NCBI GenBank assembly: GCA_003157015.1
Contig: PMIJ01000199.1
Span: 1 to 38,737 of the forward strand
DNA length: 38,737 nt
Origin: Bacteroidales bacterium
GTDB lineage: Bacteria; Bacteroidota; Bacteroidia; Bacteroidales; VadinHA17
Direction: 5' to 3'
The notes beneath the pieces were generated by a model that searched no databases, was not told the origin of the DNA, and worked only from the letters and a program-made list of their open reading frames with translations. The position numbers were made by a program, and so were the translations under genes. Shown piece by piece: positions 9,233 through 21,852 of this stretch. Each line of letters starts with the position of its first letter. The first letter of the stretch is position 1.

Positions 9233-9311
9233 ACCCCCTACCTCCCCATTTGGGGGCTCTCGCCTATCGTAATTAAGGTTTAAAGTCCCCCATTTGGCGG
9301 ATTTAGGGGGT
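9233..9311. terminator. CCCCC/GGGGG inverted repeat between ggt and the Ehr-like operon
   Basis: Outer arms ACCCCCTA (9233-9240) and TAGGGGGT (9304-9311) are perfectly complementary. Inside lie CCCCATTTGGGG (9244-9255) and a CCCCCATTTGGCGG copy (9287-9300). The right arm overlaps the stop codon of the minus-strand gene. The position at a convergent junction suggests a shared terminator. A related element is the palindrome at 29210-29225. Confidence 0.6.
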
Positions 9312-10061
9312 AATCCCAATTAAATCCATCACTCCATTAATGAATGTCAGAGGGTGAACAGGATTTCCCGGTATGTATAAATCGATATTATTTTGTTCAA
9401 TAAAACTTCTGTCAATGGCGGGACTCCCTTCAAAAATACCTCCACTGATAGCATCTGTTCCGGCAAGAATAATAATTTTAGGGGAAGGAACTGCGTTATA
9501 GGTAATCTCCAGGGCTTCAGCCATATTCCGCGAAAGCGGGCCTGTAATAACAATACCGTCAGCATGACGGGGTGAAGCAACAAATTCAATTCCATACCTC
9601 CCCATATCAAAATTCACATTCCCGCATGCATTCAGCTCTAGCTCAGTACTGTTATCTCCTCCCGCCGAAACCTGTCGTAGTTTCAATGCGCTTTTAAAAA
9701 GTTTTCTTATCTCTTTCCTGACTATTGTTTCTTCAAGTCGTACAGGATTTTCAGAACCAGGTTTTATTACAAGCGTTTCCCTTAAATTTGAAGTTATCCT
9801 GTAATCATTTGTGAACCTGATTTTTTCAGGCAGCAGGAATGAACATTCTTTACAAAAAGTACATCTCCCCAAATCAATGGATCCCGATCTGTTGTCAATA
9901 GCCATTACAGGGCAGATGGCAGATACATTTTCAATTTCTTGTATTGTCATGTCTCCTGAAATGACCGGACGTCCTCTGAACAAACCGGACACAGGTTGTG
10001 TACGCAGATTCTTAATATATTGTCTGCCATGACTTTTCAGAACTTTTATCTCTTTCAGCAT
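9303..10061 (-). CDS. ehrS: Ehr-type small subunit: one-cluster ferredoxin fused to a NuoB/HyfI-like domain with a degenerate N2 site
   Basis: The 252-aa protein has two parts. Residues ~30-85 form a ferredoxin domain with CTFCKEC (67, 70, 73) plus C50 before a Pro, enough for exactly one [4Fe-4S] cluster; the second cluster's ligands are replaced. Residues ~130-250 match the small subunit of group 4 hydrogenases and complex I (NuoB), with SPRHADGIVITGP and AISGGIF. Of the four N2-cluster cysteines only C146 remains: the others read Leu143 (LNAC), Asp203 (GTDAISGG) and Asn233 (IPGNP instead of IPGCP). The open frame reaches 10172, but that extension overlaps the preceding gene; ATG 10061 follows it after 22 bases. 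It is the last gene of the operon. Electron transfer by the classical route to an N2 site looks impossible, so the role is open. The symbol follows Ehr naming and is tentative. Confidence 0.8.
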   Translation of the reverse strand: MLKEIKVLKSHGRQYIKNLRTQPVSGLFRGRPVISGDMTIQEIENVSAICPVMAIDNRSGSIDLGRCTFCKECSFLLPEKIRFTNDYRITSNLRETLVIKPGSENPVRLEETIVRKEIRKLFKSALKLRQVSAGGDNSTELELNACGNVNFDMGRYGIEFVASPRHADGIVITGPLSRNMAEALEITYNAVPSPKIIILAGTDAISGGIFEGSPAIDRSFIEQNNIDLYIPGNPVHPLTFINGVMDLIGITP

Positions 10062-10083
10062 TATAGAAATGTTCAATAAAATT

Positions 10084-11610
10084 TTATAAATCGTTTCCGC
10101 AATAAGACAGGTTAAAACTCTTATTGCATATCGGGAAGTCAGATATTTCCTGATTACGTACAGCCAATGCAAGAACCATCCAGTTATGAATCGAAGGATC
10201 CTTCACTTTATAATGTAAAATGTTGCCATCATTGTCACTAACGGCTGTATGACAAATTTCTCCCCTCCATCCTTCCACTATTGAGATCCCAACGCTGTTT
10301 TGTTTTAACTCATAATTATAAACAGGCTTAATAATTTTTTTTTCTTTTTGTCGCCAGATCTCAATAAGCCCACCTAAGATTTTCACCGATTCACGTACCT
10401 CAAGATTGCGTTGCATGCCACGAGCAAATACATCACCTGTTTCAAGTGTTACCTGTTGAACCGGATAGGTCCTGTAGAATTGAAAGGGATGTGTTACCCG
10501 AATGTCGCGTGGAATATCACAGGTGCGTGCAGCCATTCCTACAGCACCTGTCATCAGGGCTTGTTGCTTTGTTACTTTTCCGATATCCTCAAACCTAGCA
10601 AGAAGGCTTGGCAAGGAATATATACACTCAGTCACTTCACAAAATCGCCGGTCGACATCTTTAATCACTCTCAGCATTTCTTCTGCAACATCATTACTAA
10701 GGGGAAAATTACTTCCTCCCGGACGCACTAAACCTTTGCCAAAGCGGTTGCCACACCATAACTGAGTTGTATTTATTATTAATGTTCTGAGAGCCTCACT
10801 TACAACTTGTCCAAGTTGGTAAGCAACATCACCGCATAATGCAGCAGTGTCTCCAATATGGACAGCAATCCTTTCCAATTCCAAAGCAATACATCGTTCA
10901 ATCTGCAATTTCTCGCTGACTTCAACGGCAGCTAATGACTCAATAAGTTGTGAATGAGCCAGAGCGTGTCCGATTGAAGTATCTCCGGCAATACTTTCTG
11001 AAAGGATACATCTTTGTAGTGAATCTTTTCTTTCGATGAATAATTTCTCAATTCCACGATGCTGATACCCAAGTTGAATTTCGAGATGCAATACTTTTTC
11101 ACCATTACAGATAAACCTGAAATGGCCCGGTTCAATAATACCTGCATGTACAGGGCCCACTCCCACCTCATGCAACTCTTCACTCTCAATCGAATAGAAA
11201 GGATAATTCTCAATGGTCTTTGATTTATCAAAGCGGTCATACGAATATCTTACCGGTTTCAACCATGGATGATCATTAAATTCTACACCAAAATTTTCAT
11301 GAATCTCGCGTTCAAATATCTGAAGTTGAGGGCAAACCGTAGTTAATGATTTTAATTCAGGTTTATTCATGTTCTGTTCATGTGAGAACACAGCAATACT
11401 TTTATTATTGTCGTCAGCTATATAACAATAAAACTTCAGAATACCGGATATTACTACTCCATAATAAACCACGCAATGTTTCGCTTCATTTTTCAGAAGA
11501 AGACTTACCTGTTCATAAAAAAGATCATATTTTAAAACGGGTATTTCTTTAAGGTCAAGCGGAAATGAATTATTTTTTACTTCTGAATATAATTTTTGAT
11601 TCATTATCAT
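10084..11610 (-). CDS. ehrL: Ehr-type large subunit (NuoCD/HycE-like) without Ni-Fe ligands
   Basis: The 508-aa protein combines a NuoC-like domain (~1-125, ending IFEREIHENFGVEFNDHPWL) with a NuoD/HycE-like domain (~148-508, opening VGVGPVHAGIIEPGHF). In true [NiFe] enzymes four cysteines hold the metal site. Here the first pair (RVCGICG-type) aligns without gaps to SIAGDTS, putting Ala208 and Thr211 at the cysteine positions. The C-terminal DPCxxC motif reads NLSYCGND, with Ser502 and Gly505 at the cysteine positions. No Ni-Fe centre can therefore form. The absence of any C-terminal maturation peptide (the protein ends four residues after C504) and of hyp genes nearby fits. It sits in the operon between the ehrD-like and ehrS-like genes with gaps of 2 and 22 bases. 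Best described as Ehr-type, function unknown; not a hydrogenase. Confidence 0.85.
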   Translation of the reverse strand: MIMNQKLYSEVKNNSFPLDLKEIPVLKYDLFYEQVSLLLKNEAKHCVVYYGVVISGILKFYCYIADDNNKSIAVFSHEQNMNKPELKSLTTVCPQLQIFEREIHENFGVEFNDHPWLKPVRYSYDRFDKSKTIENYPFYSIESEELHEVGVGPVHAGIIEPGHFRFICNGEKVLHLEIQLGYQHRGIEKLFIERKDSLQRCILSESIAGDTSIGHALAHSQLIESLAAVEVSEKLQIERCIALELERIAVHIGDTAALCGDVAYQLGQVVSEALRTLIINTTQLWCGNRFGKGLVRPGGSNFPLSNDVAEEMLRVIKDVDRRFCEVTECIYSLPSLLARFEDIGKVTKQQALMTGAVGMAARTCDIPRDIRVTHPFQFYRTYPVQQVTLETGDVFARGMQRNLEVRESVKILGGLIEIWRQKEKKIIKPVYNYELKQNSVGISIVEGWRGEICHTAVSDNDGNILHYKVKDPSIHNWMVLALAVRNQEISDFPICNKSFNLSYCGNDL

Positions 11611-11612
11611 TC

Positions 11613-13040
11613 CTATTTGGGTAATAAGCCAAAACTTTGATTTATAAGATCAACCAAAAAAGGTGGTTGATAAAAACACATAATAATAACTATTCCAAGA
11701 AGGACAAACTGGCTGACTGATTCAACTGGATTAACCTTATCAGGTACTTTCGAATCACCTTCATTCCTCGAATTGGAAAAGAGAATATGCATAATCCTTG
11801 TACTCATGGCATAGATCACAAAACATAGCAGAATAATTGCAATAACCAGAACAAACCATTTATCATTTAATACCAATCCTTTAAATATCATGAACTCTGA
11901 TATAAACAATCCCGAAGGAGGAATGGCAAGGATGCAGACCATTCCAAGCAAAAGGACTAAAGCGCCAGCCGGATATAGTTCCATATATTTACCGCATTCA
12001 TCCAGTTTGAAAGTGTGAAGTACCCTGGACAATTGGCCCATCTGATAAAAAAGGCTTGATTTTGTAAGTGAATGCAGGACAAGCAAAAGCAACGCTGCAT
12101 AATAACCGTATCCCCCTACACCTACTGCAATAGCCACCAATCCCATATTTTCGAGACTTGAATAAGCAAGCATCCGTTTAAGATGTTTTGCTTTAAGCAT
12201 ATAACCTGCAGCCACTAACAACGACAATAATCCTGAAAGAATAAGGACACTATTCATAAAAGGCAAAATAGTCGATGAAGCGAACAATGTATATACTCGG
12301 AAAATTGCCAGGAATCCTACATTCATCAAAGTAGTGGAAATCAAAGCGCTTATTGGAGGTGGAGCCACTGAATGAGCATCAATAGTTACCGTATGCATGG
12401 GAAAAAGTCCCATTTTTGTACTAAAGCCGATTAAAACAAATACAAATGCGATTTTGAGATACAGGGGATTAGCCAGATTAATAATATTGATCAATGAAGC
12501 AAATGAAAGGTTTGCAGCATCATCGCGACCATATATAAATCCTAAAAATAAAATACCCAGATAAGCCATAGCAATTCCCGTCGAACAGATAAAAACATAT
12601 TTCCAGGTCGCCTCCAGAGCCATCTCGGTCCGGTCGTGATAAATAAGTGCTGCAACAGCTAATGTAGTGGCCTCCACAAAGATCCATAGAACAGTCATCC
12701 CATTTGCCAGGTATGCGCCTGTCATAAAAGTCATAAGAGCAATGAGTGCTGAATGGTAAATGTCATATTTTTTTGTGTCATCTTTTGAAGCATAAATAAA
12801 ACCATGATAAACAGTGGGAATTGTTAAAAATGATAAAACGGAGAGTAATAAAACGCCCAGACTATTAAATGTGAAATAGCCAAGTTCAGTTTTGTTCAAA
12901 TTAGTCCAACAATGAAGTGTAAGCCAGATATGTAGTAATACAAAGCTAATGGTCATGATTTTAGTAATAGTTTTGTTTTTAAACAAAACTATAGCTATGA
13001 TCATTATTGATGATATTATAAAAAACAATAAAAGTGTCAT
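11613..13040 (-). CDS. ehrD: Ehr-type antiporter-like membrane subunit (HyfF/NuoN-like)
   Basis: The 475-aa protein has about 14 membrane helices and belongs to the proton-conducting (NuoL/M/N, MrpA/D) family. The charged residues that drive ion movement are kept: Glu123 in WIFVEATTLA (helix 5) and Lys209 in GFSTKMGLFPMHTV (helix 7), followed by DAHSVAPPPISALIS. The helix 8 position often held by Lys is Asn240 (TTLMNVGF). The closest pattern is HyfF, the second antiporter-like subunit of hydrogenase 4. It starts 3 bases after the stop of the ehrC-like gene, so it is clearly part of the operon. Predicted role: one ion channel of the membrane arm, H+ or Na+ undetermined. Confidence 0.83.
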   Translation of the reverse strand: MTLLLFFIISSIMIIAIVLFKNKTITKIMTISFVLLHIWLTLHCWTNLNKTELGYFTFNSLGVLLLSVLSFLTIPTVYHGFIYASKDDTKKYDIYHSALIALMTFMTGAYLANGMTVLWIFVEATTLAVAALIYHDRTEMALEATWKYVFICSTGIAMAYLGILFLGFIYGRDDAANLSFASLINIINLANPLYLKIAFVFVLIGFSTKMGLFPMHTVTIDAHSVAPPPISALISTTLMNVGFLAIFRVYTLFASSTILPFMNSVLILSGLLSLLVAAGYMLKAKHLKRMLAYSSLENMGLVAIAVGVGGYGYYAALLLLVLHSLTKSSLFYQMGQLSRVLHTFKLDECGKYMELYPAGALVLLLGMVCILAIPPSGLFISEFMIFKGLVLNDKWFVLVIAIILLCFVIYAMSTRIMHILFSNSRNEGDSKVPDKVNPVESVSQFVLLGIVIIMCFYQPPFLVDLINQSFGLLPK

Positions 13041-13043
13041 CTA

Positions 13044-13658
13044 TTAATCTTTTAACATGGTAAGCTGGTTAGTATGAGGTTTGAGTCGTAATCCGAAAAA
13101 TCCAAGAATTAAAACTCCCACAAAAATGTCAAGCAATATTCCAACATTTATCATCATTGGCATTTTATTCCCGATTGCGAGCGAAAATATAAAAACTGCA
13201 TTTTCAATAATTAAGAAACCTATAAGATGAGAAATTATCAGTTTATGCGTTACTATGATCAGTAGACCGGTAAACAGAGTAAAAAGAGCTATGGTCATGT
13301 AAATAGCATTAACAAAGGAGTTTACCAGGGAATTCGCCAGAATAACACTTATAAGTAATGCAAAAATTGATAAGATAAGTGAATAAAATCCGGGCATTGC
13401 TAAATGATGAACTTTTGTTATACCTGAACGGTAGATGATCCTTGTCAATAAATATGGAATCAAAATAGCTTTAAAAACCAACGATTCGAAAGCAATAAAA
13501 ATCAGGTTCGCAGTATTGACCTCTTTTAGTTCAAATATAGCAATACCGCACAGTAATAATCCTTGCAGTCCTACCAGCCTTGTATAAACTATTAGCCTTT
13601 CGGCAGAGGCAAAGTAAACCAGAGTCACTGCGAACAAAACTATCAGGTAATTTACCAT
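13044..13658 (-). CDS. ehrC: Ehr-type HyfE-like membrane subunit
   Basis: The 204-aa, very hydrophobic protein has about six helices and matches HyfE in size, in position between the NuoH-like and second antiporter-like genes, and in its C-terminal half, which is NuoK-like (LIIVTHKLIISHLIGFLIIENAVFIFSLAIG, including the buried Glu in IIENAVF). HyfE and NuoK-type subunits bridge the antiporter-like subunits and the NuoH-like subunit. Sequence conservation in this family is low, so context carries much of the weight. It lies 9 bases after the ehrB-like gene and 3 bases before the ehrD-like one. Confidence 0.75.
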   Translation of the reverse strand: MVNYLIVLFAVTLVYFASAERLIVYTRLVGLQGLLLCGIAIFELKEVNTANLIFIAFESLVFKAILIPYLLTRIIYRSGITKVHHLAMPGFYSLILSIFALLISVILANSLVNSFVNAIYMTIALFTLFTGLLIIVTHKLIISHLIGFLIIENAVFIFSLAIGNKMPMMINVGILLDIFVGVLILGFFGLRLKPHTNQLTMLKD

Positions 13659-13667
13659 TCTATAATT

Positions 13668-14582
13668 CTATATTTTATCAGTCAATATTAAGATTATCAC
13701 AAAAGCTATCCATCCGATTGAAGATATAGTCAAAATGAATTTAGGATTTAGATTCATTTTATTCCGTGCCCTAAAAGATTCTATAAGACCAATGATTATT
13801 GCAAATATTATCTGAACTGCCATGAATAGAACAATCTGTAAAAAGATGTTCCATCCGGCAGGAACAATAACATTACACATCAAAGCACCATAAATTGAAA
13901 ACTTCAAATACGAACCTATATGAATCAATGCTTTGTCGAAACCGCTGTTGTCAAGGATCATCACTTCATGGATCATTGTGAGTTCCAGATGTGTTTTTGG
14001 GTCATCAACAGGAATCCTGCAGTTTTCAACCATTGCAATCTGAATAAATAAATAGAATCCTATAATACTGTATATCAATACATAATTATTCCCTGTAACA
14101 AAAAAATGACTAAAAATATCCGAGAAAGATGTATAACCGGTAAACATGGCAAATGTGGCCAGCAGGATAAAAAACGCCGGTTCCACCAGCATGGAGAAAA
14201 ATGCTTCACGATTCGCTCCCATTCCCTCAAAACTGCTACCGGTATCGAGAGCGGCAATAATTGCAAAAAACTTACCGAATCCAAGAAGGTAAGAGAAAAA
14301 CACAAAATCACCTTCAAAAGATATTGGAGCAGCCTGATTAGCAAAAGGTATTACCAGCAATGCACAAAAAATGCATGACAACGATATAGCAGGCGCTAAT
14401 TGAAATATTAATCCTGTTGTATTGCTGAAAACACTGCCTTTCCTTAGAAGAACACCAATTTCTTTAATCGGCTGAAGTATGCCCGAACCTTTTCTCCCTG
14501 AAGTAATGCTTTTTGTCCTTACTATTATTCCGGGAAAGAAAAAAGCTGAAACTAAAATTAAAATAAATCCTATCAATGTCAA
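13668..14582 (-). CDS. ehrB: Ehr-type NuoH/HyfC-like membrane subunit, TTG start
   Basis: The 304-aa protein has about eight helices and the signatures of the NuoH/HyfC family. GRKGSGILQPIKE follows helix 1 (around residue 29), FEGMGANREA is at 118-127, and the acidic loop ENCRIPVDDPKTHLEL is at 186-201. In complex I this subunit contacts the NuoB/NuoD module and links redox chemistry to ion movement, and its acidic loop is kept here although the redox module is altered. No ATG is available near the N-terminus. The frame opens with TTG at 14582, overlapping the TGA of the upstream gene as TTGA, which implies translational coupling. Family confident; the start is likely but unusual. Confidence 0.82.
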   Translation of the reverse strand: MTLIGFILILVSAFFFPGIIVRTKSITSGRKGSGILQPIKEIGVLLRKGSVFSNTTGLIFQLAPAISLSCIFCALLVIPFANQAAPISFEGDFVFFSYLLGFGKFFAIIAALDTGSSFEGMGANREAFFSMLVEPAFFILLATFAMFTGYTSFSDIFSHFFVTGNNYVLIYSIIGFYLFIQIAMVENCRIPVDDPKTHLELTMIHEVMILDNSGFDKALIHIGSYLKFSIYGALMCNVIVPAGWNIFLQIVLFMAVQIIFAIIIGLIESFRARNKMNLNPKFILTISSIGWIAFVIILILTDKI

Positions 14583-16573
14583 ATGATGTTAAAGTAGGTC
14601 AATAAAAATACAAGTAACATATAAACAAACGCATATAAAATATAATGTTGAATCTGTCCGGTCTGCATTACTGCAATCTTTTTTAAGAGGTTCGAAAACC
14701 AATTAACAGGCTTGTCAATCAGCATCTTTTTAAAAATATCATCGCTATGCGACTCAAAAGTTCTCTTATCAGGAAATATTTCATCTTCCAGAATGTCTCT
14801 CATTATCTTTTTTGTCTGAAGCACAGGTTTTGCTATATGATTATAGTTATAGGCATAGGATGTGGCCGTATATTGTTGTTTAGATGTGCCGGCTGAATAG
14901 CCGCAACCCCACGTGGGTCCATAAGAAATTTGTCGCGACTTAAGATGATAATGCCTGTAAACCAGTAAAATAACAACTGTAATGATAAATACACCACTAA
15001 GAAGACTTATTTGGGTGAGGTTATTGAGAGAGGCGCCTGCAATAAGAGTTATATCGGGAAGTTTGAATACCCGGGATATTATATCAAATACAGGTCTGAC
15101 AAATAGAACCGATGCCAATCCTATAGTAACAATAAAAGTAATGGTAATATATTGAGGGGAAATCATATCATTACTGACTTCTTTTGCCATTTTTGCTTTT
15201 TCCGAACGTGATTCCCCAAGGAATACAATTCCAAAAGCTTTTGTAAAACAGAATATTGCCAGTCCGCCAATAAGAGCCAGCCCGACAATAGTCCCCAGAA
15301 TTATAATAGATTGAAATAAGTTGGCAACATACAGGCTTTTAAACATGCCTATATAGATCAGATATTCTGAAATAAAACCGTTGAACGGAGGCAAGCCGCA
15401 GATAGCCAGAGAACCTATCAGGAACAGGATTGCAGTGTATGGCATACTCTTCATTAAGCCACCCATTTGTTCAATGTTTCGCGTATGCATTGCATGATAT
15501 ACTGATCCGGCATTAAAAAAGAGAAGTGATTTAAACAAGGAATGATTCAAAACATGAAGCAAACCCCCGCTAAAGCCCAGTAAACTCAAAGGGGTATTGT
15601 TAGTCGCCAGACCAATTACCCCTAATCCTATTCCGATTCCTATGATACCTATATTCTCAATGCTATGGTATGCTAACAAACGTTTAAGATCGTGCTGCAC
15701 AATAGCCATCATAACACCAAGAATTCCTGATATCAATGAGATAATGAGAATTGAAATACCTATCATAAGCAGATCGTTTTGAACTGATATCAAAACTCTC
15801 AGAATACCATAAATACCCATTTTTATCATTACGCCCGACATCACCCCCGATACATGCGACGGGGCCGCAGGATGTGCCTCTGGTAACCATGTGTGCAAAG
15901 GAATAAACCCCGCCTTTATGCCAAAACCAATAAAAAACAGGATAAAAAGTAAAAAATTTGAGTGGTTAGAAAAATAAAGTCTAAGAGCATCAAAACTCAT
16001 TTGCCCGGTAGCTTTGCCGACCAATAAAAAAGCAATCAACAGAAAAAACATGCCTACATGCATCTGTATCAGGTAACTTATACCTGTTTTCAATATGGTT
16101 CGATCCTCTGCTTCAAAAATAACAAGCAGAAATGATGATAGGGCCATGATTTCCCAAACGATGAGAAATGTCAGACCATCACGGATCATCACCACCATTA
16201 TCATCGACAGATAAAGCCATAAGTATGAAAAAAAATGTATTGAAAAGGATAGGGAATTTTTGTTTTGATAATATGGCCTGAGGTATCCTTTTGCATAGAG
16301 TAAACCAACTAAAACAGTTATATTAATTACAGCTATAAAAAATGCGGAAAGCCTGTCGATTACCAGAATAAGACTATTTCGGAAAGCTGGCAATTCAAGA
16401 TCTATTTTCAGTACCTGGCAGTTTCCTGAAAAAACTTTAAAACACCATGCTGAGCTTAAAACGATAGCACCGGTAAGCAGAAACAAAGTATAGTAGTACT
16501 TATAAGACTTGGGTATAAAAAAAACCAGAAATGTCAGGAATAAAATGGTAAGAAACAGTATAGCATTCATCAT
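14579..16573 (-). CDS. ehrA: Ehr-type large antiporter-like membrane subunit (HyfB/NuoL-like)
   Basis: The 664-aa protein is the first gene of the operon, with about 16 helices. Key residues of proton-pumping antiporter-like subunits are present: Glu141 in LIVWEIMALSS, Lys220 in GFGIKAGFIPLHTWLPEAHP, and Lys251 in VMIKMGIYG. The C-terminal part (TWGCGYSAGTSKQQYTATSY, around residue 545) is the hallmark of HyfB/HycC-type subunits rather than NuoL. Predicted role: ion channel of the membrane arm. Two adjacent ATG codons (16573, 16570) could serve as start. The upstream gap of 221 bases holds a 9-bp inverted repeat that may regulate the operon. The kept charges argue that the membrane arm is still functional. 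Confidence 0.85.
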   Translation of the reverse strand: MMNAILFLTILFLTFLVFFIPKSYKYYYTLFLLTGAIVLSSAWCFKVFSGNCQVLKIDLELPAFRNSLILVIDRLSAFFIAVINITVLVGLLYAKGYLRPYYQNKNSLSFSIHFFSYLWLYLSMIMVVMIRDGLTFLIVWEIMALSSFLLVIFEAEDRTILKTGISYLIQMHVGMFFLLIAFLLVGKATGQMSFDALRLYFSNHSNFLLFILFFIGFGIKAGFIPLHTWLPEAHPAAPSHVSGVMSGVMIKMGIYGILRVLISVQNDLLMIGISILIISLISGILGVMMAIVQHDLKRLLAYHSIENIGIIGIGIGLGVIGLATNNTPLSLLGFSGGLLHVLNHSLFKSLLFFNAGSVYHAMHTRNIEQMGGLMKSMPYTAILFLIGSLAICGLPPFNGFISEYLIYIGMFKSLYVANLFQSIIILGTIVGLALIGGLAIFCFTKAFGIVFLGESRSEKAKMAKEVSNDMISPQYITITFIVTIGLASVLFVRPVFDIISRVFKLPDITLIAGASLNNLTQISLLSGVFIITVVILLVYRHYHLKSRQISYGPTWGCGYSAGTSKQQYTATSYAYNYNHIAKPVLQTKKIMRDILEDEIFPDKRTFESHSDDIFKKMLIDKPVNWFSNLLKKIAVMQTGQIQHYILYAFVYMLLVFLLTYFNII

Positions 16574-16794: not shown

Positions 16795-17514
16795 TTATTT
16801 GAGTGATGGTCCGGAAAGACGTGAAGGATCATGCCGATTCCTGCTTTTTATGCAATAGATAAAATGATTGTCCTTATAGACAGTTTCGATCAAACCAAAA
16901 TATATTAAATCAGCTAAAATATTCTCAGCAGTGCTTTTAGGCAGAAATGCCATTCTGCAGAACTTTGAGATTGAGATTGATGAATTTAATTCCAGATATT
17001 CCATAAGTTTTTTTACCTTATCGCTGTATTCGATTAATATACCCCTGTTGTGAGTTTTGTTTTTCCAGACTTTCAGATGAACTGCCGTTGCGAGTATGTT
17101 TTCATCTTTTACCCTTATATAAGCCAGCCATTTACCTGGTTCGGGCTGAGCAAAAAATGGATAGTTTGCGCCCTTGGGAATTATTACTTCAAGCACTGTT
17201 TTACCATCGACAATCCATCGCTTTGACTTGAAAGTAACCTCGGGCTTGCAGTACATTCCTGCAGCAGCCTGAACCATGTAAAATTCTTCATCAGAGTGTA
17301 TCCCGGAAATGTTGCCATTATCTTTGACGCCTATAAGCAGGGTACCGCCGTCGGTATTGGAGAAAGCCACCAGTGTCTTGGCAATTTTCCTGGAATCTGA
17401 AATTTCAAATTTGAAATCCAACTCCTGGTTCTCCCCTTCCTGTATTAACCTTTTTATATATGATTGCGGTAATGGCGTAACCACATTTGCTGCTCCTGTA
17501 TTATATCTTGCCAT
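16795..17514 (-). CDS. AlbA_2-domain (Schlafen-type) protein with C-terminal winged helix
   Basis: The 239-aa protein has an AlbA_2 (formerly AAA_4) domain at about residues 20-130, recognisable from GENQELDFKFEISDSRKIAKTLVAFSNTDGGTLLIGVKDNGNISG. A region at ~150-225 with winged-helix character follows (SISKFCRMAFLPKSTAENILADLIYFGLIE). Such proteins are usually treated as putative DNA-binding transcription regulators, and the AlbA_2 fold is also related to Schlafen nuclease cores. The gene is divergent from the STAND NTPase gene across about 210 bases, so it may regulate or assist it; this is inference from position. It runs in the same direction as the Ehr-like operon, 221 bases upstream of it, and so could also act on that operon. 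Confidence 0.75.
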   Translation of the reverse strand: MARYNTGAANVVTPLPQSYIKRLIQEGENQELDFKFEISDSRKIAKTLVAFSNTDGGTLLIGVKDNGNISGIHSDEEFYMVQAAAGMYCKPEVTFKSKRWIVDGKTVLEVIIPKGANYPFFAQPEPGKWLAYIRVKDENILATAVHLKVWKNKTHNRGILIEYSDKVKKLMEYLELNSSISISKFCRMAFLPKSTAENILADLIYFGLIETVYKDNHFIYCIKSRNRHDPSRLSGPSLK

Positions 17515-17724
17515 TTTTATTAAAATGAATTAATCTGTTAGCAAATGTGAATTCAAAGTAATAAGAAGACAATATTACGAATTCCTTAAATAATAAATAA
17601 GCTGGATGCCTTATAATCTTCAGGATTAATAAGCAAACTAATAGCAGTCTGATCATTGTACTTCTCATTTATTTTCATTAATTATGCTCATACTTTATTT
17701 AAGGTTGTCCCTATACTATTTTCC

Positions 17725-20700
17725 ATGAAATCACCATTCAAATTCCTTGATTCTTATACAAAAGAAGACCGCGAAATATTTTTCGGACGTGAAAAGGAAA
17801 TAGAAGAATTGTACCGGCGTCTTTTTGAAAGCAGAATATTACTGGTCTATGGAGAATCAGGAACTGGCAAATCTTCCCTAATCAATTGCGGATTAATTAA
17901 TAAACTCCAGGACAAACAATACCTCCCCGTCTATATTCGCCGCTCCGACAATATACTTGAGAGTCTGTCGGTAGCTATGCAGATTCTGCTTAAAGAATCT
18001 TCTCCCCGTCAATTACTTACAGCTCTTCTGTTCAAAAAAGCAGTGAGAGAGATTTCAGATGATACACAGAGAGAATTAATATTCATTTTTGACCAGTTTG
18101 AAGAATTATTTATTTTCGGAACAAAAGAAGAAAAACAGAGTCTTGTTCAGGTTCTGAAAGTCCTGACCGAATCAGATCTGACTTGCAGATTTATGTTCAT
18201 TTTACGTGAGGAGTATTTTTCAAATGTGGCAGAGTTTGAGAAACATATTCCTAATTTTCTGTCTAACAGGATGCGAATTGAGAAAATGGATAGAACAAAC
18301 GCTATAGTGACTATACAGGGATCATGCAGTGTTAATGACATTCAGTTTGAGGAAGGATTTGCGGAAAACCTTCTTAAAAAACTCAATCCCGACAGCCCTG
18401 GAATAGAGCTCACCTGGCTGCAGATTTTTCTTGACAGGATCTTTAACATGGCTGTTTATGATGAAAAGCCTGATAAAATCAGTAATAAGCCTCTTGTTTT
18501 CACAATAGCTTTAGTCGAAAAAACAGGTGATGTCACTGATTTACTGGGTAGTTTTCTCGATGAACAGATCTCATTATCAGCCAAACCCGAAACGTCACTG
18601 GCGATATTGAAATCCTTCGTCTCATATAAAGGTACCAAACGTATGCTTAATCTGGCTGAAGTTAAAGATTATGCAAATACTCTTGGGGAATATGTCAAAG
18701 AGAAAGATGTACTTGAAATAATAAGATCCCTCGTCAATTTAAGAATATTGCACGATAAGAATGAGAAGGGGCTTTATGAACTACGGCATGATTCTCTGGC
18801 TGCAAAGATCTTTGAAAAGATATCTTCTGCCGAAATCGAAATTCTTGAGGTCCGGCAGTTTATCGAAAGTGCATATTACTTCTGGAAGAAACACGGAGTA
18901 TTGCTCTCTGAAGATGATCTTAAATATATTGACCCATTCGGAAAAAGGTTATCGCTTTCTGATGAACTCACATCTCTAATAGAATTAAGCAAAGAGAAAT
19001 TTAGAAAGACAAAATCCAGAAGAAGGAATATCCTGGTTTCGGGAGGAATAATAATTATTTTTTTGCTTTCCGTCTTTTCAGGCTGGGCATTAAAAGAACG
19101 TAACAGGGCAGAAATTCTAAAAACAAAGGCATTAGCAGAAAAATATAATCTGCTGGCATCAAATATTGCCATTCACGATCCGACAAAAGGTTTAAGAGTT
19201 GCTGAATATGCTTATTCCCTCGATACAGCTAACCAGGGTATTCTGACCAATATTAAAAGAATCTATTCAGATAATGTCCTGTATACCTTAATTGCTAAAC
19301 AGGACAATGCATTTGCAAAACAGGAAGACGCAATTCATGCTTTAACATTCTCTCCTGATAGTAAATTTATTCTTACCGGATCAGGAGATGGTACGGCAAG
19401 ACTTTGGGACCTGAATGGTAAAATGATTAAAGTGTTTATTGGCCATTCAGGATTTGTTAATTCGGTCGCCTTCTCCCCCAACGGTCAGACAATTCTTACG
19501 GGTTCATCTGATCGCTCTGCCCGTCTCTGGGATATTAGTGGGAAGGCAATTGTGGATTTTAAAGGGCATGGCATGGCTGTTAATTCTGTAGCTTTTTCTC
19601 CAGATGGTAAAGAAATTCTTACAGGATCAAACGACAGAACTGCCCGTCTTTGGGATCTGAAAGGTAATGTAATTCAGGTATTTAAAGGACATAACTCCTC
19701 AATATTTGCTGTTGCTTTTTCAAATGATGGTCAACATATTGTTACCGGGTCGTCTGATTCAACTGCCAGACTTTGGAATATCAAAGGGAAACAATTAAAA
19801 GTCTTAAGCAAAAATCTTGATGTTGTCACCACAGTTGCATTTTCACCTGACGGACAAAAAATACTTGTAGGATCGAATGATAAAACAGTAAAACTTCTTG
19901 ATCTGGATGGAAATCTCAAAAGGATATTCACTGGATATCCTGGAGAAGTAAATGACGTGGTTTTTTCTCCGGATGGGAAAAAAATACTGGTTGGTGCAAG
20001 CGCTGGTTTTGCTATGCTTTTGGATCTGAATGGAAATGAGATAAGAGAATTCAAAGGGCATTCTTTACTGATAAAAGCAGTTGCTTTTTCACCTGATGGT
20101 ACTAAAATAGCAACAGGTTCAGCTGATTGCACGGCAAAACTCTGGGATTTGAGCGAAAATATATCGCAGGTATATAATGGGCATACCGGGAAAATTACTT
20201 CAGTTAAATTCTCAAGTGACGGCAAAGAATTTCTTACCAGCTCTTCCGATCGAACAGCCCGGCTATGGGATCTCAGCGGAAATACAATTAAAATTTTCAA
20301 AGGACATAGAAATGGCATTAATGATGTTGCATTTTCACCCGATGGTAAAAAAGTATTGACAGGGTCTGATGATGGTACAGCAAGGCTCTGGGATCTGCAG
20401 GGAAATGTAATAAAGATATTCTCGGGTCATAATATGGGCATAATGAGTGTTGCTTTTTCTCCCGATGGTCAGAAAATACTCACAGGGTCAAGTGATGCAA
20501 CTGCCCGTCTTTGGAATATAAGCGGGCAAACACTTATGATTTTCAGAGGACATAATACATCTGTCAATTCAGTCGCATTTTCACCTGATGGTAAAACAAT
20601 CCTGACCGGAGGAAGCGATTATTCTGCCCGGCTTTGGGATCTCAATGGAAATGTTCTGACAATATTAAAAGGACAATTGAGCAGGATTAATTCTGTAGTA

Positions 20701-21852
20701 TTCTCTCCCGACGGGCAAAGCTTCTTAACCGGATCATTTGGATCAGATCCTTCTGCCAGGCTTTGGGATCTAAAAGGAAATTTATTAGAAGTTTTTAATG
20801 GACATACAACTTCAATATTCTCAGTTGCTTTTTCGCCCGATGGAAAAAAAATTCTTGCAGGATCAGCTGACCAGACTGCTATTCTTTGGAACATTCGGGG
20901 AAATATTGATCAGGTTTTCTCAGGAGACAAATCCTATGTAAGATCTGTTGTTTTTTCTCCTGACGGACAACATATTCTAATAGGGCTGGACAATGGCAAT
21001 GTACGGTTGTATCCGGTAAAAATGCCTTTTCAGAGTTTTTACAAAAAAGATAAATATGAAAAACTGAATTCATTTGATAAACTATTATATAATATAACTG
21101 ATATCAATAAAATAAAAAATTCTGAAAATGAAAGCGCAATTCTGCAAGCTTCTGATTATTACGTAAATGAAGCTATACAGAGTGGCAGTAGTGAAAAAAA
21201 CAAGTACTTGAATAATGCAATAGATTTGTATAACAAGCTACTAAAAGAAGATCCTGGTAAAAAAGAATACCTGTTCAATCTTTTAAGGACAAGCATTTAT
21301 AGTTACATAACAAACCCGACTGATCAGACTAAGAAAGAAATAGAAAAACTAAATGAACAAGTTTTAGATTTCACTTCCCTTGAAGATCTTACTCTATCTG
21401 CCTATACTTACCTTTTAATCTGTTTCAAGAATGATAAGACAATTGACCAGCTAAATATTCCCGAATGCTTCATGGGTATTTGCAGAAAATTATTGAATCA
21501 CCCTGAGCTGACTGAGGTTGGGAGGAAGGATGTTAGCCGTTGGTGTTCATATATTGCACCCGATTTTATTCAGAAAAAAGAATTCCCTCAAGCCCTTCAG
21601 GTAATTCAAATATCTCAACTTTCAGACAGTACCAATAAAGAGATGCAGGCTATTCTTCCAATAGTTTATATATTTAACAATCAATATGATAAAGCAGAAT
21701 TAATAATTAAAGAATTTAGAAATAAATCACTGATTGGTATCGATTATTTCAAAACGTATAAGGATGTCTATAATTATGTCATCAATTTATTTGAGGAACA
21801 AGCTATTACTCATCCTGATTTTGCAAAGGCAAGAGCCCTGTTAAAGGATTAA
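17725..21852 (+). CDS. STAND-type NTPase with one membrane helix, 14 WD40 blades and a helical C-terminus
   Basis: The 1375-aa protein (from ATG 17725; the frame can be extended to a TTG at 17656 but without support) has four parts. Residues ~1-310 are a novel-STAND/AAA-like NTPase with Walker A GESGTGKSS (43-51) and Walker B FIFDQFEEL (Asp123). A helical arm follows to ~430. One hydrophobic helix (~437-456) comes after the basic KTKSRRR. About 14 WD40 repeats of ~41 residues (~537-1100) make two seven-bladed propellers. The last ~270 residues are helical and TPR-like. STAND proteins are signal-sensing switches that oligomerise on ligand binding and include many antiphage and cell-death receptors. 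The positive charge before the helix suggests NTPase inside and propellers in the periplasm. No toxic effector domain was recognised. The domain call is strong; the function is unknown. Confidence 0.85.
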   Translation: MKSPFKFLDSYTKEDREIFFGREKEIEELYRRLFESRILLVYGESGTGKSSLINCGLINKLQDKQYLPVYIRRSDNILESLSVAMQILLKESSPRQLLTALLFKKAVREISDDTQRELIFIFDQFEELFIFGTKEEKQSLVQVLKVLTESDLTCRFMFILREEYFSNVAEFEKHIPNFLSNRMRIEKMDRTNAIVTIQGSCSVNDIQFEEGFAENLLKKLNPDSPGIELTWLQIFLDRIFNMAVYDEKPDKISNKPLVFTIALVEKTGDVTDLLGSFLDEQISLSAKPETSLAILKSFVSYKGTKRMLNLAEVKDYANTLGEYVKEKDVLEIIRSLVNLRILHDKNEKGLYELRHDSLAAKIFEKISSAEIEILEVRQFIESAYYFWKKHGVLLSEDDLKYIDPFGKRLSLSDELTSLIELSKEKFRKTKSRRRNILVSGGIIIIFLLSVFSGWALKERNRAEILKTKALAEKYNLLASNIAIHDPTKGLRVAEYAYSLDTANQGILTNIKRIYSDNVLYTLIAKQDNAFAKQEDAIHALTFSPDSKFILTGSGDGTARLWDLNGKMIKVFIGHSGFVNSVAFSPNGQTILTGSSDRSARLWDISGKAIVDFKGHGMAVNSVAFSPDGKEILTGSNDRTARLWDLKGNVIQVFKGHNSSIFAVAFSNDGQHIVTGSSDSTARLWNIKGKQLKVLSKNLDVVTTVAFSPDGQKILVGSNDKTVKLLDLDGNLKRIFTGYPGEVNDVVFSPDGKKILVGASAGFAMLLDLNGNEIREFKGHSLLIKAVAFSPDGTKIATGSADCTAKLWDLSENISQVYNGHTGKITSVKFSSDGKEFLTSSSDRTARLWDLSGNTIKIFKGHRNGINDVAFSPDGKKVLTGSDDGTARLWDLQGNVIKIFSGHNMGIMSVAFSPDGQKILTGSSDATARLWNISGQTLMIFRGHNTSVNSVAFSPDGKTILTGGSDYSARLWDLNGNVLTILKGQLSRINSVVFSPDGQSFLTGSFGSDPSARLWDLKGNLLEVFNGHTTSIFSVAFSPDGKKILAGSADQTAILWNIRGNIDQVFSGDKSYVRSVVFSPDGQHILIGLDNGNVRLYPVKMPFQSFYKKDKYEKLNSFDKLLYNITDINKIKNSENESAILQASDYYVNEAIQSGSSEKNKYLNNAIDLYNKLLKEDPGKKEYLFNLLRTSIYSYITNPTDQTKKEIEKLNEQVLDFTSLEDLTLSAYTYLLICFKNDKTIDQLNIPECFMGICRKLLNHPELTEVGRKDVSRWCSYIAPDFIQKKEFPQALQVIQISQLSDSTNKEMQAILPIVYIFNNQYDKAELIIKEFRNKSLIGIDYFKTYKDVYNYVINLFEEQAITHPDFAKARALLKD
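19333..21029 (+). repeat. WD40-coding tandem repeat, about 14 units of ~123 bp
   Basis: Within the STAND gene the block VAFSPDGKxILTGSxDxTARLWDLxGN recurs about every 41 codons. Fourteen units can be counted, matching two complete seven-bladed propellers. Units 5, 6 and 14 lack the standard LWD ending (LLD, LLD, LYP), whereas units 2-4 and 8-13 are close to each other in protein sequence. Such repeats are prone to recombination and to assembly errors. Confidence 0.9.

Follow-up and report, generated by a model that had tools for sequence, protein, structure and literature searches.

The window analysed here, a stretch of 38,737 nucleotides, carries an operon for an Ehr-type complex whose small subunit retains none of the four cysteines expected to bind cluster N2; two acidic residues are found among these four positions instead. 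The operon belongs to a clade of N2-less relatives, and we put at about even the chance that it encodes a redox-decoupled ion translocator in which the carboxylate pair likely matches the charge of the lost cluster. Because the four N2 cysteines have been replaced by two acids, the complex would likely move ions without electrons entering its core. Ehr complexes without Ni-Fe ligands are already known, as far as the passages of the literature consulted go, and what appears to be new is the variant without N2. This variant touches the long-standing question of how complex I couples electrons to ions: evolution removed N2 cleanly while the membrane arm stays fully equipped, and isolates exist to work on. 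The N2-less clade thereby separates the electron-dependent features of the superfamily from those that depend on charge or protons, and the two-acid rule described below offers a simple sign by which further retired clusters may be recognised.

Operon and classification

The operon spans positions 9303–16573 of the minus strand and consists of six genes, five of which lie upstream of the small-subunit gene (Table 1). The six genes are found together in 48 of 65 long loci, some of the others being cut by the locus ends.

Table 1. Operon genes and ligand positions of the small subunit, in window coordinates
Feature	Position	Strand	Remark
Small subunit, ferredoxin–NuoB fusion	9303..10061 (including stop)	−	252-residue open reading frame
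N233, column of the fourth N2 cysteine	9363..9365	−	Asn in 308/319
D203, column of the third N2 cysteine	9453..9455	−	Asp/Glu in 381/391 N2-less sequences
C146	9624..9626	−	Non-ligand column, unconserved: Cys in 11/121 close homologues
T139, column of the second N2 cysteine	9645..9647	−	Cys in 315/391 N2-less relatives
D136, column of the first N2 cysteine (CxxC)	9654..9656	−	Asp/Glu in 389/391 distinct N2-less sequences
C50, C67, C70, C73, ligand set of the single retained [4Fe-4S] cluster	9843..9914	−	
Large subunit, NuoC/NuoD-like fusion, HycE-like	10084..11610	−	
HyfF-like antiporter-type membrane subunit	11613..13040	−	E123, K209, E382 present
HyfE-like membrane subunit	13044..13658	−	NF008556, 38.9 bits, below the cut-off of 136
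HyfC/NuoH-like membrane subunit	13668..14582	−	PF00146
HyfB-like antiporter-type membrane subunit	14579..16573	−	E141, K220, K251, K297, E403 present

The group-4-like core of small, large, NuoH-like and antiporter-like subunits is present, and the large subunit is devoid of the Ni-Fe cysteine motifs: the four Ni-Fe cysteines of HycE align with A208, T211, S502 and G505 of the window protein. Judged by these encoded features, the operon specifies an Ehr-type complex, a relative of the group 4 hydrogenases that has no Ni-Fe ligands. A group 4 [NiFe] hydrogenase would carry two Ni-Fe CxxC motifs and the ligands of the proximal [4Fe-4S] cluster, both of which are absent, and a respiratory complex I would possess the tandem N2 cysteines that the NuoB-like half lacks. 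The likeness to Mrp antiporters consists of a Pfam match to the antiporter-like family alone, and Na+/H+ exchange is putative for this operon.

The operon seems to be dispersed in some genomes, since the small subunit of L034, L089, L097 and L105 stands without a large-subunit gene in the stretch examined (for L034 and L089, this stretch covers about 10 kb on the upstream side). In L040, L054, L099 and other N2-less loci, a second HyfB-like gene of full length lies ahead of the operon.

The N2 ligand columns of the small subunit

The small subunit is a fusion of an N-terminal one-cluster ferredoxin domain and a NuoB/HycG-like domain without N2 cysteines (PF01058, the NuoB/hydrogenase small-subunit domain, at residues 140–246 by Pfam). 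In the HMMER alignments, the CxxC motif of MbhJ (6cfw_J) and HycG (7z0s_G) aligns with D136-N-S-T139 of the window protein, and the relatives with an intact N2 set carry the motif C136-N-x-C139. The ligand columns being D136, T139, D203 and N233, the small subunit of the window is without any of the four N2 cysteines.

An earlier note on this DNA had described three of the four as lost, taking C146 for a retained ligand and Leu143 for the position of a missing one. This register, which is off by a few residues, was ruled out by the two HMMER alignments together with the intact relatives, and the column of C146 is rarely occupied by cysteine. The assignment of Asp203 and Asn233 to ligand positions in the same note is borne out by the alignments. 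Its count of five cysteines in the whole protein (at 50, 67, 70, 73 and 146) is likewise correct, and the motifs SPRHAD and AISGGIF were indeed found unbroken in the translation. The description of three lost cysteines does suit most of the relatives, in which C139 is present (315 of 391 distinct N2-less sequences).

Survey of relatives and the two-acid rule

For each of three protein queries the 120 best matches were taken, to which loci from genomes and contigs were added, including the best 80 of 523 confirmed relatives from a contig scan. Rows identical over the aligned columns were merged, by which 433 aligned rows were reduced to 424 distinct sequences. Among the 424 collected, 391 are N2-less, with no or one cysteine at the four positions, and 33 possess all four; rows with two or three N2 cysteines were not found among these sequences. 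Since the collection was built from the best 120 per query and the best 80 of 523, the ratio of 391 to 33 is shaped by sampling round the window. A survey of cysteine conservation in homologues had been proposed in the earlier note as a check. It shows that the cysteine loss is shared, with the restriction that the 33 intact relatives keep the complete set. The state is hence not peculiar to this protein but common to 391 of the 424 relatives collected, and it corresponds to a single change on the trees.

Within the family of the window, 39 of 98 genomes, its own included, match at E ≤ 2.1e-80. A sample of 296 genomes of the phylum yielded 12 matches at E ≤ 1e-20, of which ten are intact and two, the window and L021, N2-less. 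Of the best 80 of 523 loci taken from the contig scan, 79 are N2-less. These 80 are mostly labelled Bacteroidota, with a few Spirochaetes, Brocadiaceae or Phycisphaerae, and the lone intact locus carries the label Gastranaerophilales. Isolates with the N2-less complex are Chryseolinea serpens and two Arcticibacter species.

Exactly two acidic residues are distributed over the four N2 positions in every N2-less sequence (391/391), while acids are found there in none of the 33 intact relatives. The pair occupies 136 and 203 in 379 sequences, 136 and 139 in 10, and 139 and 203 in 2; an acid stands at 139 in 12 rows, namely in all those that have none at 136 (2) or at 203 (10), and in no others. 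Three of the columns are nearly invariant across the clade (D136 in 314/319, D203 in 304/319, N233 in 308/319), so that the pattern goes beyond chance. Column 139 is often Ala, Gly or Val, and N233 is replaced by Tyr, Phe, His or Ser in one clade.

The fold round the N2 site is unchanged in the structure prediction, which would be compatible with an unusual N2 cluster that persists on Asp and Asn and no more than one cysteine. That [4Fe-4S] clusters with a single Asp ligand exist was counted in favour of such a cluster. However, 76 of the 391 N2-less sequences, including that of the window, are without a cysteine at all four positions, and Ala, Gly or Val at 139 and Phe or Tyr at 233 cannot, or can hardly, ligate iron. 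We regard a persisting cluster as very improbable.

Origin and selection

The N2-less state appears to have a single origin on the trees calculated. When the N2 columns were masked, one branch separated all N2-less rows from the others in the FastTree tree (157 of 352 rows, including all 33 intact ones; SH 89), and the same split forms one branch in the quick IQ-TREE tree (91 of 433 rows, chosen to hold the odd rows too and including 28 of the 33 intact ones; SH-aLRT 92). The support of 89 and 92 is good, not overwhelming. In the IQ-TREE tree, the letter at column 139 changes 24 times and its acid state 4 times, against 1 acid-state change at 136 and 3 at 203; the acid pattern shifts 3 times in the FastTree tree. 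Since the sequences are related, the independent support for the two-acid rule comes from these three to four acid moves and not from the full 391 of 391.

The small subunit is under purifying selection, with dN/dS values of 0.07–0.12 against four relatives, and the values for the large subunit are 0.12–0.21. The earlier claim that the loss is selective is supported. With three ligand sets gone (those of N2, of the second ferredoxin cluster and of the Ni-Fe site), one might suspect that the gene is simply decaying. This is contradicted by the dN/dS values of both subunits and by the survey of 424 distinct sequences; moreover, the frames are open and conserved across relatives mostly labelled Bacteroidota. 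Decay is scarcely credible.

The ferredoxin half

The ferredoxin half was read correctly in the earlier note: exactly one cluster set, C50, C67, C70 and C73, is complete, and the ligands of the second cluster are all gone, as the columns 39, 43, 46 and 77, which are Cys in two-cluster relatives, hold Thr, Ile, Val and Leu in the window protein. By the ligand lists of complex I, we take the retained set to correspond to N6b, which adjoins N2. The set is complete in 423 of the 424 distinct sequences, the sole exception being a reading frame cut near the end of its locus (L106), and the 33 intact relatives all carry these same four cysteines. The idea that electrons may enter but have no N2 to reach agrees with a ferredoxin cluster set that is present and N2 ligands that are gone. 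Such strict retention suggests that some electron chemistry still matters, and it counts against a purely non-redox machine. A sensing role of the ferredoxin module is possible.

At least eight cysteines are present in the ferredoxin segment of 30 of the 33 intact relatives (three rows have fewer) and of 49 of the 391 N2-less sequences. From this distribution, N2 was apparently lost before the second ferredoxin cluster in the lineage of the window. The ferredoxin type changes 3 times on both trees (FastTree and IQ-TREE).

Large subunit and membrane arm

The following counts refer to large subunits of more than 400 residues. The Ni-Fe columns are without cysteine in 83 of 84 N2-less and 8 of 9 intact relatives, the other two having one cysteine each. 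The arginine of the HRGxE motif (R185) is present throughout, in 84/84 and 9/9, respectively. Two cysteines distinguish the groups: C453 is found in 78/84 N2-less large subunits and C259 in 80/84, and both are found in 0/9 intact ones. As the large subunit has thus changed alongside the small one (C453 in 78/84 against 0/9), a new electron acceptor or a metal site may be located there.

The complex might accordingly still be a redox enzyme, in which the one ferredoxin cluster hands its electrons directly to an acceptor site newly formed in the large subunit. Both the ferredoxin set (423/424) and the two cysteines speak for this reading. However, C259 is no special novelty, because E. coli HycE has a cysteine aligned there, and C453 or C259 is absent in 10 of the 84, in one case through a gap. 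Distance is a further difficulty. The proximal cluster of E. coli formate hydrogenlyase occupies the place of N2, and the steps between clusters stay under 14 A, according to the passages seen of PMC9474812; without an equivalent of N2, the last step would be about doubled. Direct transfer of this kind is quite unlikely.

No variation is seen in the charged residues of the membrane arm: E141, K220, K251, K297 and E403 of HyfB are conserved in 45/45 rows and E123, K209 and E382 of HyfF in 50/50, counted over rows of at least 70% length with L110 set aside. These are presumably the known proton-path residues of complex I. The HyfF of the window has Leu at position 319, where 48 of 50 relatives have His.

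Proposed mechanism

A [4Fe-4S]2+ cluster with four thiolates has a net charge of −2. Two carboxylates, if both are ionised, would also carry −2 and could stand in for the charge of the oxidised cluster, by which the balance with the conserved HRGxE arginine would be preserved. The acid pair would in this way hold the arm together. From the charge match and the parallel with ovine N7 (see below), the N2 site is read as a charge-matching plug.

In the redox-decoupled translocator that we favour, the ferredoxin cluster would be the last stop for any electrons arriving at it, N2 being absent, and its role would be structural or that of a sensor. H+ or Na+ would be moved by the two antiporter-type subunits, with no quinone or proton being reduced at the N2 end. 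Candidates for the driving force are the ion gradient itself or a ligand bound in the old active site. A more specific proposal, which we advance only tentatively and hold to be rather doubtful, is that a carboxylate pair able to take up and release protons has replaced the last redox cofactor throughout the clade. A redox-driven pump would thereby have become a proton- or ion-driven one, with its quinone or hydrogen end switched off.

Genomic context and a possible metal site

The scanned neighbours of the window operon encode an M49 peptidase, a DNA alkylation repair protein, a gamma-glutamyltranspeptidase, a Schlafen/AlbA_2 protein and an nSTAND–WD40 protein, and none of these five gives a hint of a partner. 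The nSTAND NTPase (17656-21852), a protein of 1398 residues with many WD40 repeats, adjoins the Schlafen/AlbA_2 gene (16795-17514). Other genes shared by the loci were not found, the commonest clusters occurring in 5 of 65 loci only. An HTH + PTS EIIA-like protein is encoded upstream of hyfB in the intact-type loci L128, L130, L131 and L132, and partially in L129 and L133 (PF12728 and PF00359 in L131, PF00359 and a weak helix-turn-helix match in L128, the rest judged by eye); it was not seen at the operon of the window.

A SulP-family transporter (PF00916) is the next same-strand gene in 5 of 74 N2-less loci (L079, L094, L096, L099 and L109) and in 1 of 8 intact ones (L127), three loci with fewer than 900 bases downstream being left out of the count. 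Its first Met lies about 3 to 21 bp past the small-subunit stop in L096, L099 and L109. In the intact-type loci L128 and L130 a SulP gene is located upstream of hyfB. These neighbours are a weak hint at an anion or bicarbonate role, in which bicarbonate is a guess, because SulP proteins carry several anions.

The two acids and N233, joined by C139 in most relatives, could also hold one metal ion (Zn, Fe, Mn or Mg) where N2 once sat. The pocket would then have become a new site with a catalytic or a structural task, perhaps in CO2/bicarbonate chemistry beside SulP. Asp, Asn and Cys are usual metal ligands, and L079 contains a weak carbonic anhydrase-like reading frame besides its SulP gene (PF00484, 23.1 bits, below the cut-off of 25.7). 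Moreover, unassigned density at N2 is described for the Yarrowia R121M complex in the passages seen of PMC8042128, a mononuclear metal being one option of its authors. The site is not fixed, however: the acids shift among 136, 139 and 203, position 139 is often Ala, Gly or Val, and N233 gives way to Tyr, Phe, His or Ser in one clade. SulP does not adjoin the small subunit in 69 of the 74 N2-less loci, nor in the window. A metal site is judged unlikely.

The same genome contains two further complex-I-type gene sets (L112 and L113, at G000:C71 and G000:C125), whose NuoB-like genes encode the tandem and the distal N2 cysteines. The genome can thus build N2 elsewhere.

Comparison with known systems

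The Ehr, or energy-converting hydrogenase-related, complexes were reportedly introduced in a founding paper by Marreiros et al. in 2013. The window resembles them in its group-4-like subunit set and in a large subunit without Ni-Fe ligand motifs; in contrast to the 33 N2-intact relatives, it also lacks the N2-equivalent cysteines. The passages seen of PMC6349859 and PMC10284858 describe Ehr complexes as having no Ni-Fe ligands and an unproven function, and Ehr does not occur as a whole word in PMC8076601. A natural N2-less homologue was not found in the titles, abstract beginnings and passages that made up the literature searched, Marreiros et al. 2013 lying outside this scope.

The E. coli formate hydrogenlyase and hydrogenase-4 are also among the closest known systems. 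HycG and HycE are the best structural matches of the soluble subunits of the window, and its membrane subunits are related to HyfB-F. However, the window complex has neither Ni-Fe nor proximal cluster ligands, and a one-cluster ferredoxin is fused to its small subunit. In DAB2, a NuoL-like subunit is coupled to a soluble part that hydrates CO2 and does not transfer electrons, as stated in the passages seen of PMC13144422. The window differs from DAB2/MpsAB in that its soluble part is NuoB/NuoD-like, and a DabA-like family was not detected by Pfam in the six operon proteins or the five flanking ones.

An experimental counterpart is the NDUFS2-R121M complex I of Yarrowia, which assembles fully and keeps its overall structure although a wild-type-like N2 is missing, and which shows no quinone reductase activity (PMC8042128, in the passages seen, as for the following two points). 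Its quinone site is disordered, and its authors conclude that quinone is not truly reduced by any route independent of N2; the HRGxE arginine is needed for N2 in Yarrowia. A whole complex without a wild-type-like N2 is likewise expected for the window. The R121M complex is a laboratory mutant that keeps the four cysteines and is locally disordered, whereas the state of the window is natural and conserved.

A published parallel for the chemistry is offered by the retired cluster N7 of NDUFS1 in ovine complex I. The cysteines 228, 231, 235 and 263 that form N7 in E. coli NuoG correspond to Asp229, Asp232, Ser236 and Ser264 plus three waters in the ovine enzyme (Table 5 of PMC8357420). There too, four cysteines have given way to two Asp and two other polar residues. 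However, ovine N7 lies off the electron path, while N2 is the final cluster that electrons pass on their way to the quinone (PMC10212512, in the passages seen).
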